A DNA stretch of 64,000 bases from Gilvimarinus sp. DA14. GTDB lineage: Bacteria; Pseudomonadota; Gammaproteobacteria; Pseudomonadales; Cellvibrionaceae. Shown piece by piece: positions 15,459 to 21,394 of this stretch (positions are counted from its first letter, which is position 1; each line of letters opens with the position of its first letter). Where the stretch lies: positions 2,396,501 through 2,460,500 of the forward strand of contig NZ_CP100350.1 of the NCBI RefSeq assembly GCF_024204685.1, written 5' to 3'. Under the pieces are notes generated by a model. That model saw nothing but the letters and a program-made list of their open reading frames with translations, was not told the origin of the DNA and did not search any database. A program made the position numbers and the translations under genes.

Positions 15459-15512
15459 CGGGGTCAGGCCTTACGTTTGACGGTTTTATGTCAATTGTAA
15501 GGCCTGACCCCG
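15459..15512. repeat. REP/RAYT-type palindromic element
   Basis: A 16-base inverted repeat: CGGGGTCAGGCCTTAC at 15459-15474 pairs perfectly with the complement at 15497-15512, with a 22-base centre holding a nested TTGAC/GTCAA pair. GGGGTCAGGYCTTAC-type palindromes are common in gammaproteobacterial intergenic DNA near IS200-like REP-associated transposases (recalled knowledge). No transposase is present here. It marks the left edge of the AT-rich cassette island and could also end transcription from both sides. Confidence 0.7.
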
Positions 15513-15524
15513 GAAGCTCGTTCG

Positions 15525-15977
15525 CTATGCATTGTAGTCTTCGATTGTTATTAGGTACTCAATACTTGATATAAAAATCTTGTAATCACTATTGAGCGCT
15601 TGTACTAAGCTTTCTTCAATTCGTTCGATACGCTCTTCCGGGGTTTCATTATTATTGGAAGCTGGTTTAACCATTCTTTGAACGTGCTTTTCAGCAGCAT
15701 ATCGCATTTGAGTTAAATGACCTACTGCTGATTTAGGAAACAATAACTTCGCTTTTGCAATATGTGCATCAAAGCTAGACAACACATCAAAATCCCAGTT
15801 TCTGTAAACAAAAAAACTCGTATCGTTGATGAAGTCGTATCGCCTGCCAAATAGTTCATGCTTAAGGCGTTCTCGATCAAGATACGCTTGCCTACCCGAA
15901 AGTTGATATTGTTTCCAAGCTACAAAAGCTACTGACGTAGCTATAAGTATTTGCGATATCGAAGCGATTAATTCCAT
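15525..15977 (-). CDS. Single-TM protein of unknown function (cassette 3)
   Basis: 150 residues from the ATG at 15977, with GAGGG seven bases upstream; a TTG one codon earlier is also possible. The N-terminal 20 residues (MELIASISQILIATSVAFVA) form a membrane helix, followed by a basic stretch (WKQYQLSGRQAYLDRERLKH) and a soluble, mostly helical cytoplasmic domain with a Glu-rich segment near 115-125. This shape recurs in membrane proteins of unknown function from defence islands and cassettes. It starts 17 bases after the R' box of attC-2, as expected for a cassette gene. No family recognised. Confidence 0.6.
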   Translation of the reverse strand: MELIASISQILIATSVAFVAWKQYQLSGRQAYLDRERLKHELFGRRYDFINDTSFFVYRNWDFDVLSSFDAHIAKAKLLFPKSAVGHLTQMRYAAEKHVQRMVKPASNNNETPEERIERIEESLVQALNSDYKIFISSIEYLITIEDYNA

Positions 15978-15991
15978 CAACTACCCTCTAG

Positions 15992-16071: not shown

Positions 16072-16890
16072 TTAAGGCTCCAGCCTCTTGCCGTAGGCTT
16101 CTTGTAATAACTCCACAAGGAATTTTTGTAATGACTCTTTTGGATTATCAGTTTCAGCAACTATCGGCACCACCCCTCTAGCGCGAAGTATTTCTTCCTG
16201 GACCACATTTGGACGAGCTAAAAAGATATACGACTTTGGTCTTGTTTTATCGCAACCTTCTTTCTCCCACTGCTTCTGTAACCTAAAAAGAAGATAGCGG
16301 ATATTGATATCAGACAAGCTGTATCCTAAAAACAAGACAGTCTTACCTAGAACATCGCTCCTTAGCTTTATATCTAGCGGAGATTCAAAGTTCATTCTTT
16401 CGAAGTAACTAGATTCCGTGAGAACAATAGACTCATCGTCGTCAAAATCTCCATGAAATTTTATTATTTGAGTCTGATCCTCTTTCGCCGATGCTATATC
16501 AGAAACATTAGCAATTTTGCTATAAGGTACTTTCCAATAATCAAAGGACCTTTCGATCCATCTGTCATAGTTTGTTGTATAGATCGCTGATAATTCAAGA
16601 TCTACAATTGCCTTGTGAATAAGGGATTCAGAAATATTTACATCACCAGAGTGCCAAGTAGTATCCATCCAGCTTCTCAATGGGCCAAGCTTTCCTTTGA
16701 CTTGATAGTAGTACTCAGCGAGCGTCAGGTAGTCACCCGACATACGGAAAAGCTCTGAATCAAATTCTAACTCTTCTGCCAACTTGCCAATCAGAGAATT
16801 AAAAGACGGCAGTCCAAGATTCATTGATAATCCTGCGCCGGCAAAAAGCACTGCTTTCTTATTTCGAATTGCCTCAGCTAACTCATGCAT
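16072..16890 (-). CDS. SIR2-like NADase effector (KomC-like)
   Basis: 272 residues. Complete SIR2-type motifs in order: AVLFAGAGLSMNLGLPSF (GAGxS, residues 18-22), IYTTNYD (104-109), IIKFHGD with the likely catalytic His146, and FLGYSLSDINIRYLL (188-201). This set is typical of the SIR2_2 domains that hydrolyse NAD in anti-phage systems, rather than of protein deacetylases. There is no membrane segment and no large sensor domain of its own, so it presumably depends on a partner. Its ATG directly follows the stop of the HAM1-like gene with no spacer, implying coupled translation and a complex. A HAM1 plus SIR2 pair forms the sensor/effector module of Kongming immunity; the match here is by architecture only. 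Confidence 0.85.
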   Translation of the reverse strand: MHELAEAIRNKKAVLFAGAGLSMNLGLPSFNSLIGKLAEELEFDSELFRMSGDYLTLAEYYYQVKGKLGPLRSWMDTTWHSGDVNISESLIHKAIVDLELSAIYTTNYDRWIERSFDYWKVPYSKIANVSDIASAKEDQTQIIKFHGDFDDDESIVLTESSYFERMNFESPLDIKLRSDVLGKTVLFLGYSLSDINIRYLLFRLQKQWEKEGCDKTRPKSYIFLARPNVVQEEILRARGVVPIVAETDNPKESLQKFLVELLQEAYGKRLEP

Positions 16891-17451
16891 TTATACGTGG
16901 CCCCTAATTTTCAGAAACGAGGCGAATTGATCCAGCGCTTTTTTTCTCATGGATATTTCATTCTTTCTCTCTCCAAGCTCGGCGAAAGTCTTTGATTCAC
17001 CCTCTGGAACGAAGACGCAATCCCATTGAAAGTCTCGGTTGCCAATGGGTTCAGTTGGGACATAGCCTTTCACACAGCCCTCAAACAAGTGGAATCTCTT
17101 TCCATCAACAAACCCTATTACGGTCTTTGCCACCAAAGTATTCTCACCACCTTTACCGAAGAGTTGCGTAAATTTATCTGCTTGTAATGTGTCCCAAAAT
17201 ATTTGAGTAAGACCGCCTGGGAGCCCGTTCATGTAATCAATATATAAACCAGTGTGTTCTACAAATAGTGGACGCCCAATTTTCTCAAAAGCCTTAAGCG
17301 CTTTATCTTTTACTAGCCGCGATGTGTCCTCAGTTTGCAGCTCTTCGACTTTTGCTTTAACCGGAACAACAGAAACCCCAGCACCTTTAAGAATAAGTGA
17401 GGCTTCTTTGATCTTGAATTTATTTCCAGACAGAAATCTTATTTCTAGCAA
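16891..17451 (-). CDS. HAM1/RdgB-ITPase-like protein with altered catalytic site (KomB-like)
   Basis: 186 residues from a TTG at 17451, preceded by AAGGA eight bases upstream. The GTG at 17496 gives a longer frame but lies inside the attC site, so it is rejected. Family motifs: FLSGNKFKIKEASLI (TGNxxKxxE, residues 6-16), LFVEHTGLYIDYMNGLPGG (62-80), FQWDCVFVPEG (141-151) and ERKNEISMRKKAL (161-173). Active ITPases have Asp where this protein has His66 (EDT/DDSG becomes EHTG), and base-recognising SHR has become SMR. I infer binding without hydrolysis of a noncanonical purine nucleotide, that is, a sensor. It abuts the SIR2 gene. Confidence 0.85.
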   Translation of the reverse strand: MLEIRFLSGNKFKIKEASLILKGAGVSVVPVKAKVEELQTEDTSRLVKDKALKAFEKIGRPLFVEHTGLYIDYMNGLPGGLTQIFWDTLQADKFTQLFGKGGENTLVAKTVIGFVDGKRFHLFEGCVKGYVPTEPIGNRDFQWDCVFVPEGESKTFAELGERKNEISMRKKALDQFASFLKIRGHV

Positions 17452-17478: not shown

Positions 17479-17550
17479 CTCTAACGCCCACAACACCGGG
17501 CAAATTGGAGCGCAGCGGAGATTTGATCCGAGTGATTGCGCTTGTTAGCT
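17479..17550 (-). mobile_element. attC-like recombination site 1 (between cassettes 1 and 2)
   Basis: Read on the minus strand: R'' AGCTAAC, spacer AAG, L'' CGCAA, extrahelical T, CAC; opposite arm GTG, L' TTGTG, spacer GGC, R' GTTAGAG. Further helices CGG/CCG and CAAAT/ATTTG close toward the terminal CTCCGCTGCGCTCC loop, giving about 21 bp in all. This is the architecture of integron attC sites, including the AAC/GTT cores and a single unpaired base beside the L box. The stop codon of the GIY-YIG-like gene lies inside R''. Confidence 0.82.
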
Positions 17551-18555
17551 TTTTCGATAAGAGCTAGGCTCAATACAATCACTCACTTTAACCATGTTTC
17601 CAGCACCTAAGGTTACATAAAAAAATCCAGCTCTACTTTTCTCATCCACTATATCAACATTACAGATATGATAATGACTGCGCGCTCTGGAGTCTGAATA
17701 GAGGCGAAATCTTAGTTCTTCCGTATTTATTTCCACCACAAGACCAGAGAAGTCAAGTTCGTAGCACTTCCTCAAAACTTTTACTTTTGGAGAAGGGAAT
17801 TTAATTTTGAACTTATCATTGTAGAGCGGTTGAAAATATCTAATTAGCGCGGCTTCAACGAGATCTATTTGTTGCTTTTCCGTTAGAGGGTTTTCTTGAA
17901 TACTACGAAATCGATTATTTTCTACTTTATTGTCATTCTTTACGCCTGATCTACCATCCATGGTTATAAGTAGTTGGCATGGCTCAAACTTTACCATCAA
18001 TACTGATATTTCACCGTCAGGATATTTGTGATGGCTATCGGCAAGTATTTTTTGCAATGTTGAGTGGCTTTTAAGCCTTTCATGAGCGGACCTTGAACCA
18101 TTTCCAAATGCCTGCCCAACGTAAAGGACTTCTAATTGCTTCAGCGGGCTATCCCAATCCTGATTTATTGATATTAAATTTGCGGGTAAGCGCCTTACTT
18201 CTCTCCCATCTTTATCATATGTAATGATTTCCCTGTAAGGGTAATCACTTACAGCAAGACTAACTGCACCATCTAATAATGGGAACTTACCTTTATAGCC
18301 AAAGTTTTCTTCCTTCCCATCAATTTTGTAGGCAACATCAACTTCTAAAATTTCGCCATCATACTTCATTGTATCTTTGAGGAAGTACGTGGATGGCCTC
18401 CTGCAAATTAAATAGATATGACAGGATTTCGAAACGTTTTCTGTCTCCTCATCCATTGTTGCATCAGATTGGATCTGATCTGATGGCATCATAATCCACT
18501 TTGAGCTACAAATATGTACGCTATATTCTGAAAGATACTTCCTAGTTTTCTTCAT
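17545..18555 (-). CDS. GIY-YIG-like nuclease-fold protein (cassette 1)
   Basis: 336 residues, soluble. The central part reads as a GIY-YIG domain: LEVLYVGQAFGNGSRSAHER (residues 141-160), then LKSHSTLQKIL with an Arg160/His164 pair, and DLVEAALIRYFQPLYNDKFK (231-250), which carries the metal-binding Glu234 and the closing Asn246. The first half of the motif (GIY) is weak, replaced by the preceding strand EVLY. About 140 N-terminal residues and 85 C-terminal residues are beta-rich and unfamiliar to me. GIY-YIG domains are mostly Mg-dependent DNA endonucleases. As cassette 1 it precedes the HAM1-SIR2 cassette in the same direction and would be co-transcribed. Whether it acts with them is unknown. 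Confidence 0.65.
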   Translation of the reverse strand: MKKTRKYLSEYSVHICSSKWIMMPSDQIQSDATMDEETENVSKSCHIYLICRRPSTYFLKDTMKYDGEILEVDVAYKIDGKEENFGYKGKFPLLDGAVSLAVSDYPYREIITYDKDGREVRRLPANLISINQDWDSPLKQLEVLYVGQAFGNGSRSAHERLKSHSTLQKILADSHHKYPDGEISVLMVKFEPCQLLITMDGRSGVKNDNKVENNRFRSIQENPLTEKQQIDLVEAALIRYFQPLYNDKFKIKFPSPKVKVLRKCYELDFSGLVVEINTEELRFRLYSDSRARSHYHICNVDIVDEKSRAGFFYVTLGAGNMVKVSDCIEPSSYRKS

Positions 18556-18985: not shown

Positions 18986-19229
18986 TACTACGAAGTACCG
19001 CTTTTTGCCCCCTTTACATCTAGGCCGAATGGAAATCGGTTTTAGCGGGTAAGCGAACAGGAAGTTTGCGCAAGTATCGTTAGGCCATGGACGGCCTATC
19101 GATACAGCCCGCTAAAATCGATTGGAATGAGGGTACCCGCAGGGCCAGATGTTGGAGCGCGGCTTTTGGGTACTTTTGGCCAAGACCAAAAGTACCTCGC
19201 AACGCCCGGCGACACGGGCATACAAACCA
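18986..19229 (+). repeat. Structured repeat family, copy A
   Basis: About 244 bases. Predicted helices: P1 TTTTAGCGGG (19040-19049) with CCCGCTAAAA (19108-19117), enclosing P2 GCGAAC/GTTTGC (19053-19069, loop AGGAA) and P3 GTATCG-T-TAGGCC with GGCCTA-T-CGATAC (19074-19105, loop ATGGAC). Then comes GGGTACCCGCAGGGCCAGAT, P4 GGTACTTTTGG/CCAAAAGTACC (19169-19196) and P5 GCCCG/CGGGC (19204-19219). The same plan is present in copies B and C with compensatory changes. It lies just downstream of the toxin gene of the ParDE pair. Confidence 0.75.
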
Positions 19230-19264
19230 GCCCGCCCGGGCAATCCAATTAAAAATTATGAGAG

Positions 19265-19555
19265 TTACCCATTCCCCGGCCACTGCTGCGAACAATGCAA
19301 AGTTCTAAGCACCTCCACCCCACTACCCCCTTCACGATAAATAACCACAAAGGGCAAACCGTCAATGACGAGTTCTCGGGTATTTCTAACTCGGCCCTGC
19401 CGACCCGCACGAGGGTGCTGGGACAGGATCAGCTCGGCGGTGTTAATAATGGACAGCACGACATCTATTGCAATACTCGGGTCGCTGTCTTCGGCGATAT
19501 ACTGCTCTATTATTTCTAAATCCTGCGCCGCCAGATCAGTCCACTTTAGCGGCAC
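19265..19555 (-). CDS. RelE/ParE-family toxin
   Basis: 96 residues from a GTG at 19555, preceded by GGGAGG six to seven bases upstream. It reads as a ParE-type toxin: LKWTDLAAQDLEIIEQYIAE at the N-terminus, SIINTAELILSQHPRAGRQG in the middle, then RELVIDGLPFVVIYREGG and VEVLRTLHCSQQW at the end, the usual beta strands and terminal His-containing motif. ParE toxins inhibit gyrase; RelE relatives cut mRNA on the ribosome, and sequence alone favours the ParE side. The start overlaps the antitoxin gene by 20 bases. It is followed by repeat copy A in the opposite direction. Confidence 0.9.
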   Translation of the reverse strand: MPLKWTDLAAQDLEIIEQYIAEDSDPSIAIDVVLSIINTAELILSQHPRAGRQGRVRNTRELVIDGLPFVVIYREGGSGVEVLRTLHCSQQWPGNG

Positions 19556-19784
19556 GCTTTGCCTCCCAGCGGGCTTTTAAATCCGCATGGTCGATCAGGC
19601 GGTTGGCATCGGCGGCGGCTACGCCTTGCTCCACCTCGCGGATAAACCATTCCTCGCGGGCGATATACTGTTTAATCGCCTCGGCCATTAACCAGGCACG
19701 CGGCCTGTCCATAGCGTCTGCCATCTGCCCGATTCGGGCGAGGGTTTCATCGTCCAGCCTTACCGACGTTGCTTTAAGAGACAT
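19536..19784 (-). CDS. Ribbon-helix-helix (CopG/ParD-like) antitoxin
   Basis: 82 residues. The N-terminal ribbon-helix-helix is clear: TSVRLDDETLARIGQMADAM, then DRPRAWLMAEAIKQYIAREE. The C-terminal 35 residues are the charged, probably disordered toxin-binding tail. It would neutralise the toxin and repress the operon as a DNA-binding dimer. GGAG precedes the ATG, and three phased AGGTTCT repeats overlap this leader. The stop overlaps the toxin start by 20 bases, ensuring antitoxin is made first. Confidence 0.9.
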   Translation of the reverse strand: MSLKATSVRLDDETLARIGQMADAMDRPRAWLMAEAIKQYIAREEWFIREVEQGVAAADANRLIDHADLKARWEAKRAAKVD

Positions 19785-19785
19785 G

Positions 19786-19812
19786 AGGTTCTCCGAGGTT
19801 CTAAAAGGTTCT
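19786..19812. promoter_or_regulatory. Iterated operator of the toxin-antitoxin operon
   Basis: Three copies of AGGTTCT at 19786-19792, 19796-19802 and 19806-19812 with exact 10-base periodicity, hence on one face of the helix. They overlap the ribosome-binding site of the antitoxin gene. Phased short direct repeats are what cooperative ribbon-helix-helix dimers bind, so autoregulation is likely. Confidence 0.65.
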
Positions 19813-19866
19813 TAGTATATCTGAGGGGGTTGGAGCTGTATATTATTTGTACTTTGGCTGATGAGT

Positions 19867-20057
19867 TTTGTATGCCCGTGTCGCCGGGCGTTGCGAGTTA
19901 CTTTTTTCGGCAAAAAGTAACCAAAAACCTCGCCCAACATCTGGCCCCTTCGGGGTCCCCTCCCTCCGGCCAATTTTAGCGGTCGGTCTAAACCGCACGT
20001 CCATGTGCGCTTAGACCTTTCGCGCTCGTCCAGAGCGCTCAACCCCTAAAATCGGCC
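19867..20057 (-). repeat. Structured repeat family, copy C (inverted)
   Basis: Read on the minus strand it follows the plan of copy A. P1 is GGCCGATTTTAG (20057-20046) with CTAAAATTGGCC (19979-19968). P2 is GCGCTC-TGGAC-GAGCGC (20038-20022). P3 is GGTCTAA-GCGCAC, loop ATGGAC, closing GTGCG and TTTAGACC. A GGGGACCCC stretch follows, then P4 GTTACTTTTT/AAAAAGTAAC and P5 GCCCG/CGGGC. Stem sequences differ almost entirely from copies A and B while loops and pairing are kept. It lies upstream of the antitoxin gene, inverted relative to copy A. Confidence 0.72.
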
Positions 20058-20177
20058 TCCGCTCGGCTCAGCTGTAAACGGGCGAAAACCCCAATTGGCT
20101 CCACGCTTATACCCCTGAAAAAAGCCAAATAAATTAATTTCAACCGACATAAAGGCAAGGGCTTGATTCTAAATTCA

Positions 20178-20418
20178 ACTACGAAGTGCCGCTTTCGGCC
20201 CCCGTAGAGCCCGCCGAACGGAAGTCTGTTTTTGGGGGTACGCGCACAGGACGTGCGCACAAGCATCGTCAGGCCAGGGACGGCCTGTCGATGCGGCCCG
20301 CAAAAACAGGCTGGAGTGAGGGTACCCGTAGGGCGGGATCTCCGGGGAAGGGTTTTTGGTTACTTTTTACACCTAAAAAGTAACTCGCAACGCCCGGCGA
20401 CACGGGCCTACAAACCTT
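20178..20418 (+). repeat. Structured repeat family, copy B
   Basis: About 241 bases, aligned with copy A from ACTACGAAGT to the CGGGC end. P2 is GCGCAC-AGGAC-GTGCGC, P3 GCATCG-T-CAGGCC with GGCCTG-T-CGATGC (loop AGGGAC), P4 GTTACTTTTTA/TAAAAAGTAAC, P5 GCCCG/CGGGC; P1 pairs TGTTTTTG with CAAAAACA. The pairs GTATCG/CGATAC of copy A versus GCATCG/CGATGC here are compensatory. Its 3' end meets the stop codon of the tonB-like gene, so it may help end that operon. Confidence 0.75.
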
Positions 20419-21394
20419 ACAGTTGCGGCAAAAAATTCAAAGTATAATTCCGTGTAGTAACAACCACATCACTACGCGCCGGGAAGGTAATCAACTTAAC
20501 CCGCGCCAAAACCTTCGCCTCCAAATCCGGATCGTTCAGGCCAGAGCTGACGATGCTGACATCCGCCAAGGTACCGTCGGGATTAATCACCAGTTTTAAC
20601 ACCACCTTGCCCTGCAGCGCGGGGTTGCTGCGCAGGGCGCGGCGGTAGTAGCGATCCAGCGCGCTGGCGTGTTGGCTCATGATTTGGCGAATTTCTTCGT
20701 CGGTGCGCTCGGATGCAGCGCGGCTTTTGGCGGGCGCGGCTGAGGCCACGGCATCTTCACCGCCCAGCGGGCTTTCTACCTGCGTGGTTTCGCGGCCCGA
20801 CAGGGCGACACCACCGGTGTCGGTGGAAAGCGCTGCAGTGTTGATACCGCCGCTGTCGGCTTCAGCATTACTAGTAATTAAATCGCGCTGGGCGCGTTCG
20901 GCTTCGGCCTGGCCACGGGTTATGTTTTCGCTGGCAACGGCTTTGGTATCGATGGCCTCGCGCATATCCGCCAGGGCGTCTTGAAACTGCAGTACGCCGG
21001 TGGTTTTGGCTTTTTCCCGCGCTTTATCCACTTCGGTGATGGGCTCTGGCTCGGGTTGTTCTTCCGGTTCGGGTTCCGGCTCCGGTTCGGGCACCTCTTC
21101 CGGCTCCGGCGGCTCTTCGGGCTCGGGTTCTTCTTCCGGTTCTGGCTCGGGCTCTGGTTCAGGCGGCGGTGGGGGCGGCTCGATTTCCTGTTTTTCTAAC
21201 AGTACCCGCGCCAGTTGCGGCGGCAGCTCTTCTTTTTCGGCGCGTTCAATTTCCGGCAGTTGAATAAGCGGCACCACCACCCCGGCGATGGCAAATACGG
21301 CCACGGCGCCGATCAGGATTTTGCCAAAGCGCGAGTCGTCGGCCGCGCTGCGGGCAAAGGGCGATTGCCATTCTGGTGTCTGCCTGCGAGCCAT
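20417..21394 (-). CDS. TonB/AgmX-type energy transducer
   Basis: 325 residues. A basic N-terminus is followed by one membrane helix (about 25-45, ILIGAVAVFAIAGVVVPLI), then a long Pro/Glu/Pro repeat (about 70-120) that would span the periplasm. A helical linker leads to a C-terminal TonB/AgmX-like domain (about 235-325) with YYRRALRSNPALQGKVVLKL, INPDGTLADVSIVSSGLND and a final strand. Such proteins carry proton-motive energy from ExbB/ExbD to outer-membrane partners. Last gene of a nine-gene operon; its start touches the stop of the upstream exbD-like gene. Confidence 0.88.
   Translation of the reverse strand: MARRQTPEWQSPFARSAADDSRFGKILIGAVAVFAIAGVVVPLIQLPEIERAEKEELPPQLARVLLEKQEIEPPPPPPEPEPEPEPEEEPEPEEPPEPEEVPEPEPEPEPEEQPEPEPITEVDKAREKAKTTGVLQFQDALADMREAIDTKAVASENITRGQAEAERAQRDLITSNAEADSGGINTAALSTDTGGVALSGRETTQVESPLGGEDAVASAAPAKSRAASERTDEEIRQIMSQHASALDRYYRRALRSNPALQGKVVLKLVINPDGTLADVSIVSSGLNDPDLEAKVLARVKLITFPARSDVVVTTRNYTLNFLPQL

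Follow-up and report, generated by a model that had tools for sequence, protein, structure and literature searches.

What could trip a Kongming-type pair that has no KomA? The question is raised by two adjoining minus-strand genes in the 64,000-nucleotide stretch of Gilvimarinus sp. DA14 analysed here (contig NZ_CP100350.1; the whole stretch is called the window), which homology identifies as the KomB-KomC half of Kongming. Two papers (PMC12948488, PMC12774641) present Kongming as a defence against phages in which phage kinases, KomA and host NDK convert deoxyadenosine monophosphate (dAMP) to deoxyinosine triphosphate (dITP), dITP switches on KomB-KomC, and KomC then cleaves nicotinamide adenine dinucleotide (NAD+); in this model dITP is made jointly by phage kinases and the system's own deaminase. 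Our preferred answer, to which we give a probability of roughly 0.6, is that the window pair is a KomA-less Kongming in which KomB gates the NADase KomC through a 6-oxopurine (deoxy)nucleoside triphosphate, the signal being supplied by phage or host.

The komB-komC pair and the KomB site

16891..17451, minus strand: komB, predicted HAM1-like sensor related to inosine triphosphatases (ITPases), 186 residues from TTG; His66 replaces the catalytic Asp and SMR replaces SHR
16072..16890, minus strand: komC, predicted SIR2-domain NADase effector, 272 residues, ATG start, His146 conserved

The two genes abut on the same strand with zero gap (komB stop at 16891, komC ATG at 16890), as the preliminary description of this DNA had stated. 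The listed komB open reading frame (ORF) runs from a GTG at 17496 and encodes 201 residues; we prefer the TTG at 17451-17449, since homologues start there or within one residue; it also agrees with the end coordinate first given for the pair. Once this start is taken, the three features earlier noticed in the HAM1-like protein fall into place, namely His66 in FVEHTGL, the nucleotide-binding segment SGNKFKIKE and, at the SHR position of ITPases, ISMRKKAL.

Pfam assigns KomB to Ham1p_like (E 2.2e-34) and KomC to SIR2_2 (E 3.2e-27). In a sequence search of the PDB, the top match of KomB is the E. coli-type KomB (239 bits, E 3e-70) and that of KomC the E. coli-type KomC (318 bits, E 5.3e-94), and the closest solved chains are those of the deposited KomBC helices 8zsg and 8zsf, plus 9xvc with dITP. 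The earlier proposal that the pair resembles KomB and KomC is thus upheld, and the alignment it had suggested as a check gives near full-length homology, with 57% (KomB) and 55% (KomC) identity to E. coli. A structure model of KomB was poor (predicted local distance difference test score 54.4, from a three-row alignment) and was used only for ranking solved chains and reading their titles. His146 of KomC is unchanged in all 12 aligned sequences.

The same description had singled out a disabled ITPase site as something unusual. This does not hold, as the same residues occur in the KomB of komA-bearing loci and in solved KomB, which in the PDB alignment carries an identical EHTGLYI and ISMRKKA. 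EH[T/S]G is found in 10/10 aligned KomB, and the SHR triad reads SMR, SNR or STR in every one of the ten (the frameshifted KomB of the Alcanivorax locus L002 was excluded; of the L002 KomC, the part up to residue 239 was retained). The RdgB of the same genome (L008) has DDSG and SHR intact. As far as these alignments go, His66 and SMR are marks of the KomB family and not peculiar to the window pair; since komA-bearing KomB share them, they are no argument for the window KomB sensing another nucleotide. In fact, FQWDC and KNEISMR are the same, letter for letter, in the window and E. coli KomB. These segments include F, W and D, and K, S and R, which we take from ITPase structures to be purine contacts, and their identity favours the same kind of ligand.

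KomA in this genome and across komBC lineages

It is the missing KomA, not the KomB site, that is the unusual feature of the pair. The earlier remark that no deaminase lies nearby is borne out at the locus, which has neither komA nor, at E up to 0.1, a relic of it, and it extends to the genome at the level of the adenosine deaminase family PF00962: the complete 3.96-Mb, single-contig, 100%-complete genome gives no match at E 0.001. Known KomA proteins reach 159-164 bits with the PF00962 model, far over its cut-off of 27, and KomA in this genome should therefore have been detected. A host deaminase of this family, one of the suppliers first envisaged, and a KomA acting in trans are both ruled out at the PF00962 level, other families (e.g. 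adenine deaminases) not having been searched. A (d)ITP-type signal would thus have to be supplied by the nucleotide metabolism of the phage or the host.

We opened 11 distinct komB-komC lineages, in which nine of 14 viral loci (~25% identity) are not counted as komBC. komA is present in four of the 11 and missing from seven. The komA-bearing lineages are E. coli, a V. parahaemolyticus plasmid, genome G489 and the viral contigs L043/L044, and in each an adenosine deaminase gene precedes komB (2/2 loci opened in E. coli; KomA 42% identical on the viral contig). The komA-less ones are the window, Noviherbaspirillum (locus L001, genome G657), Alcanivorax (L002, G627), Pantoea plasmids (L010, L011), G635 (L029), G769 (L057) and G1076 (L085), whose contig ends ~1.4 kb upstream of komB. 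Among five komA-less genomes checked for PF00962, none was found in the window's own, G627 or G1076. On one of the viral contigs, komABC stands directly behind a gene looking by eye like a phage integrase (L043:3345-6801), and on the V. parahaemolyticus plasmid tet(B) lies within a few kb of komABC (L009:3470-9423).

In G769, a fragmentary relic of komA, matching its C-terminal third and split over three frames, immediately precedes komB in an intact pair (L057:7448-7761), so that at least there the two-gene locus derives from a three-gene one. No such relic was detected upstream of komB in L001, L002, L010, L011 or L029 at the threshold used for the window, or in L085 at E up to 0.001. On the midpoint-rooted KomC tree, the komA-less state needs three changes, and well-supported branches require at least two of these; the komA-bearing lineages, four in all, cluster only weakly (57/41). 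G1076 was found after tree building and is not included; its KomB and KomC are 88% and 91% identical to those of komA-bearing G489, a closeness that implies one further loss or gain of komA. Estimated substitution rates show purifying selection in both komA-less comparisons made: within Pantoea, KomC has a nonsynonymous rate (dN) of 0.026 and a synonymous rate (dS) of 2.41, and KomB a dN of 0.111 with dS not computable; between the window and L001, dN is 0.212 (KomB) and 0.164 (KomC), again with no computable dS. Over eight comparisons, NG86 gave no dS in five and YN00 no estimate in seven.

The distribution of komC is patchy. KomC was sought in overlapping samples of 369, 293, 389 and 144 genomes, in a single pattern scan across genome contigs, and in plasmid, E. 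coli, phage and viral collections. At E 1e-25, it occurs in 1/369 genomes of the class, the window's own; at E 1e-30, it occurs in 4/293 genomes of the order and 2/144 of the family (own included in each), in none of seven other genomes of the genus, and in 6/389 genomes of the order of G657, four of these six lacking an adjoining komB. In Pantoea, 95 plasmid records hold a komC relative; the locus is intact and lacks komA in both that were opened, and all five records shown also have a HAM1-like gene within that match. A YebG-like gene follows komBC on both of these large plasmids, and a record labelled Acinetobacter venetianus carries the komC of L010 at 100% identity. The phage collection yielded five KomC records at ~30% identity or less and no match to the E. 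coli KomB query, the window KomB not having been searched in plasmids or phages. In viral contigs, a single KomC protein as query found nothing; an alignment as query found 14 loci, five of them with komABC.

Source of the signal and competing explanations

The preferred reading draws on the identities of both genes, the catalytic-site substitutions, the conserved pocket residues, the absence of PF00962 and the repeated absence of komA. From these we infer a ligand class, a complex, an NADase switch, a role in phage defence and an origin of the signal, as follows. KomB, an ITPase fold without the catalytic Asp, would act as a sensor and bind a 6-oxopurine (deoxy)nucleoside triphosphate, for example dITP; in complex with KomC, it would then activate KomC, which would cleave NAD+, and the infected cell would die or arrest. 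In E. coli, the precursor of dITP is supplied by the deaminase KomA, encoded next to the pair; here the signal may come from a phage-encoded deaminase, from phage nucleotide kinases acting on host (deoxy)inosine monophosphate ((d)IMP), or from nucleotides escaping the housekeeping RdgB. The window pair retains both components that act after dITP, and downstream of the signal the KomA-less variant very probably works like Kongming.

Several observations weigh against a KomA-less Kongming. First of all, PF00962 matches are present in 14/41 genomes of the family and absent from 27/41, so that their lack is normal for the lineage and marks no specific loss. Second, G657 and G635, two of the five komA-less genomes checked, have a different adenosine deaminase. 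Third, the komA relic in G769 also fits ongoing decay, and Alcanivorax L002, the second-closest relative, is komA-less with both genes frameshifted, a state that may reflect decay once komA had gone. Finally, ten KomC-like SIR2 genes have no komB match in the fetched stretch, and a nucleotide sensor may thus not always be needed for the SIR2 protein to function.

L003, L013-L017, L054-L056, L058: komB-less KomC-like SIR2 genes, ~41-61% identical to the best KomC query

The L013 gene is immediately preceded by a NUDIX gene.

Of the alternatives, the one that survives best, unlikely as we hold it to be, is that KomBC without KomA senses another nucleotide, either a phage-made modified purine deoxynucleoside triphosphate (e.g. 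from deazapurine or 2-aminoadenine pathways) or xanthosine triphosphate. The absence of komA from seven lineages would accord with this, as would the variation of the triad in komA-less KomB (SMR, with SNR in Pantoea and STR in G635), together with the further changes in G635, the most divergent KomB of the ten, in the preceding segment (QSDLSTR) and from FQWDC to FEWDN. The window KomB, however, agrees with E. coli KomB residue for residue at those positions.

A rather improbable alternative is that a 5'-nucleotidase of family PF06189 is an alternative or additional partner that controls how much (d)IMP or (d)AMP is available, a part that the chromosomal copy would play in the window's own genome. 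Such a gene is next to komBC in 4/11 lineages (Noviherbaspirillum, Alcanivorax, G489 and G769), in positions and orientations that differ among the four, and in G657, G769 and G489 it is the sole PF06189 copy of the genome.

L001:6036-6983, L002:3415-4386, L028:4172-5194, L057:4980-5930: komBC-adjacent PF06189 5'-nucleotidase of the cytosolic type

On a 26-protein tree of the family, these adjacent copies need three changes and come from at least two PF06189 lineages, a pattern suggestive of recruitment on several occasions, or of losses, as far as a tree with open forks and long-branch warnings allows. Neither the window pair nor the pairs of the six other lineages, on the other hand, have a PF06189-like gene as a neighbour, and the whole G635 genome has none. 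The family is common (100/145 genomes of the order), and the single copy of the window's own genome is chromosomal, at 632 kb, and belongs to the common chromosomal clade; its neighbours are an aminopeptidase-like gene and one for a regulator of LysR type (CysB-like; names we assigned); a 96% relative of the L002 copy, moreover, sits on a 10-kb contig without kom genes. The enzyme could plausibly act as a brake that clears (d)IMP or (d)AMP from uninfected cells, or as a phosphotransferase making (d)IMP. A relative is also encoded in three phage records.

We consider it improbable that the pair is an addiction or stress module, lowering NAD when chemical deamination raises ITP or dITP, and not a phage defence. 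The many Pantoea plasmids that carry the pair, next to the YebG-like gene in the two opened, and the KomC-like proteins without komB would fit such a role; set against it are the description of Kongming as a phage defence in the two papers cited (PMC12948488, PMC12774641) and the five viral contigs with komABC. Least probable is that the pair is a decaying or inert remnant of KomABC after komA loss, as the G769 relic and the Alcanivorax frameshifts might suggest, because komB and komC of the window are fully open, dN is low and dS high or uncomputable between komA-less pairs, and the pair is intact in both loci opened among the Pantoea plasmids.

If KomBC protects cells whose genome lacks any adenosine deaminase of the PF00962 family, there would be a second source of the immune nucleotide signal, supplied solely by phage or host, and sensor and effector together would be the true core of the system. 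More widely, and as a tentative proposal for which we would not claim even odds, KomBC may be a self-sufficient two-gene immune module that reads phage-made non-canonical purine nucleotides, with KomA and 5'-nucleotidases as optional inputs, repeatedly lost or recruited, that retune which phages trip it.

Neighbourhood of the pair and known systems

17480..17552, minus strand: attC-like element separating komB from the gene upstream, a cassette-like junction, unproven
17545..18555, minus strand: upstream 336-residue ORF with a sub-threshold match to Eco29kI (GIY-YIG type), 15.4 bits against a cut-off of 30.8
15525..15980, minus strand: downstream 151-residue ORF, a neighbour

Together with komB and komC, the two flanking ORFs form an AT-rich stretch (GC 0.38-0.42 versus 0.54 for the window). 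The attC-like element matches sites on Acinetobacter and Pseudoalteromonas plasmids over 66-67 bases at 79-80% identity; its fold is no better than that of shuffled sequences, and the genome has no IntI integron integrase over the cut-off, with six sub-threshold matches. The locus may have originated as an integron cassette, for which the attC-like similarity is the one argument. An Acinetobacter plasmid encodes a 46% relative of the 336-residue protein under the sole annotation 'hypothetical'; the window protein is probably a neighbour outside the system. Either flanking ORF was considered as a KomA substitute and rejected, as neither matches anything in the other kom loci compared (E 1e-6). 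At the edge of the AT-rich stretch (15460-15511) lies an inverted repeat with two perfectly matching 15-base arms, GGGGTCAGGCCTTAC / GTAAGGCCTGACCCC, separated by 22 bases. Upstream of the island, a ParE toxin (PF05016) is paired with a ribbon-helix-helix antitoxin (19265-19784), and related intergenic blocks at 19080-20450 translate as FGYF(L/W)P..RNARRHGHT in ORFs of both strands; these are probably a dispersed, non-coding DNA repeat.

Among known systems, Thoeris ThsA has a SIR2 domain in common with KomC (PADLOC, 121.9 bits), but ThsA has a C-terminal nucleotide-binding domain behind it, whereas KomC, at 272 residues, consists of the SIR2 part only (match 12-225 of 478); no TIR or ThsB protein is among the 14 neighbouring window proteins typed. 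RdgB/HAM1 ITPases (L008; PH1917) are like the window KomB in fold and in the N..K nucleotide-binding segment, but they keep the signature of the active enzyme, the catalytic Asp (DDSG in L008, EDSG in PH1917) with SHR, where the window KomB has EHTG and SMR. A second deposited KomBC, the 9v0g series ('Helical structure of KomBC Complex'), likewise joins HAM1-like and SIR2-like partners, and its HAM1-like chain also has EH at the catalytic Asp motif; it is much more distant from the window pair (82 bits for KomB, 136 for KomC). The literature searched, which did not cover the primary Kongming paper, revealed no report of a KomA-less Kongming, and we make no claim of an unpublished variant. With Kongming itself (KomABC; 8zsf, 8zsg, 8zsh, 8zsi, 9xvc), the window pair shares the gene order and adjacency, a KomB closest to solved KomB and with the Asp of the ITPase site replaced, and a KomC closest to solved KomC and with His146; Kongming has komA, whereas here there is none in the operon or, at the level of PF00962, in the genome, and the pair is therefore filed as a KomBC module, a KomA-less variant and not a full KomABC.
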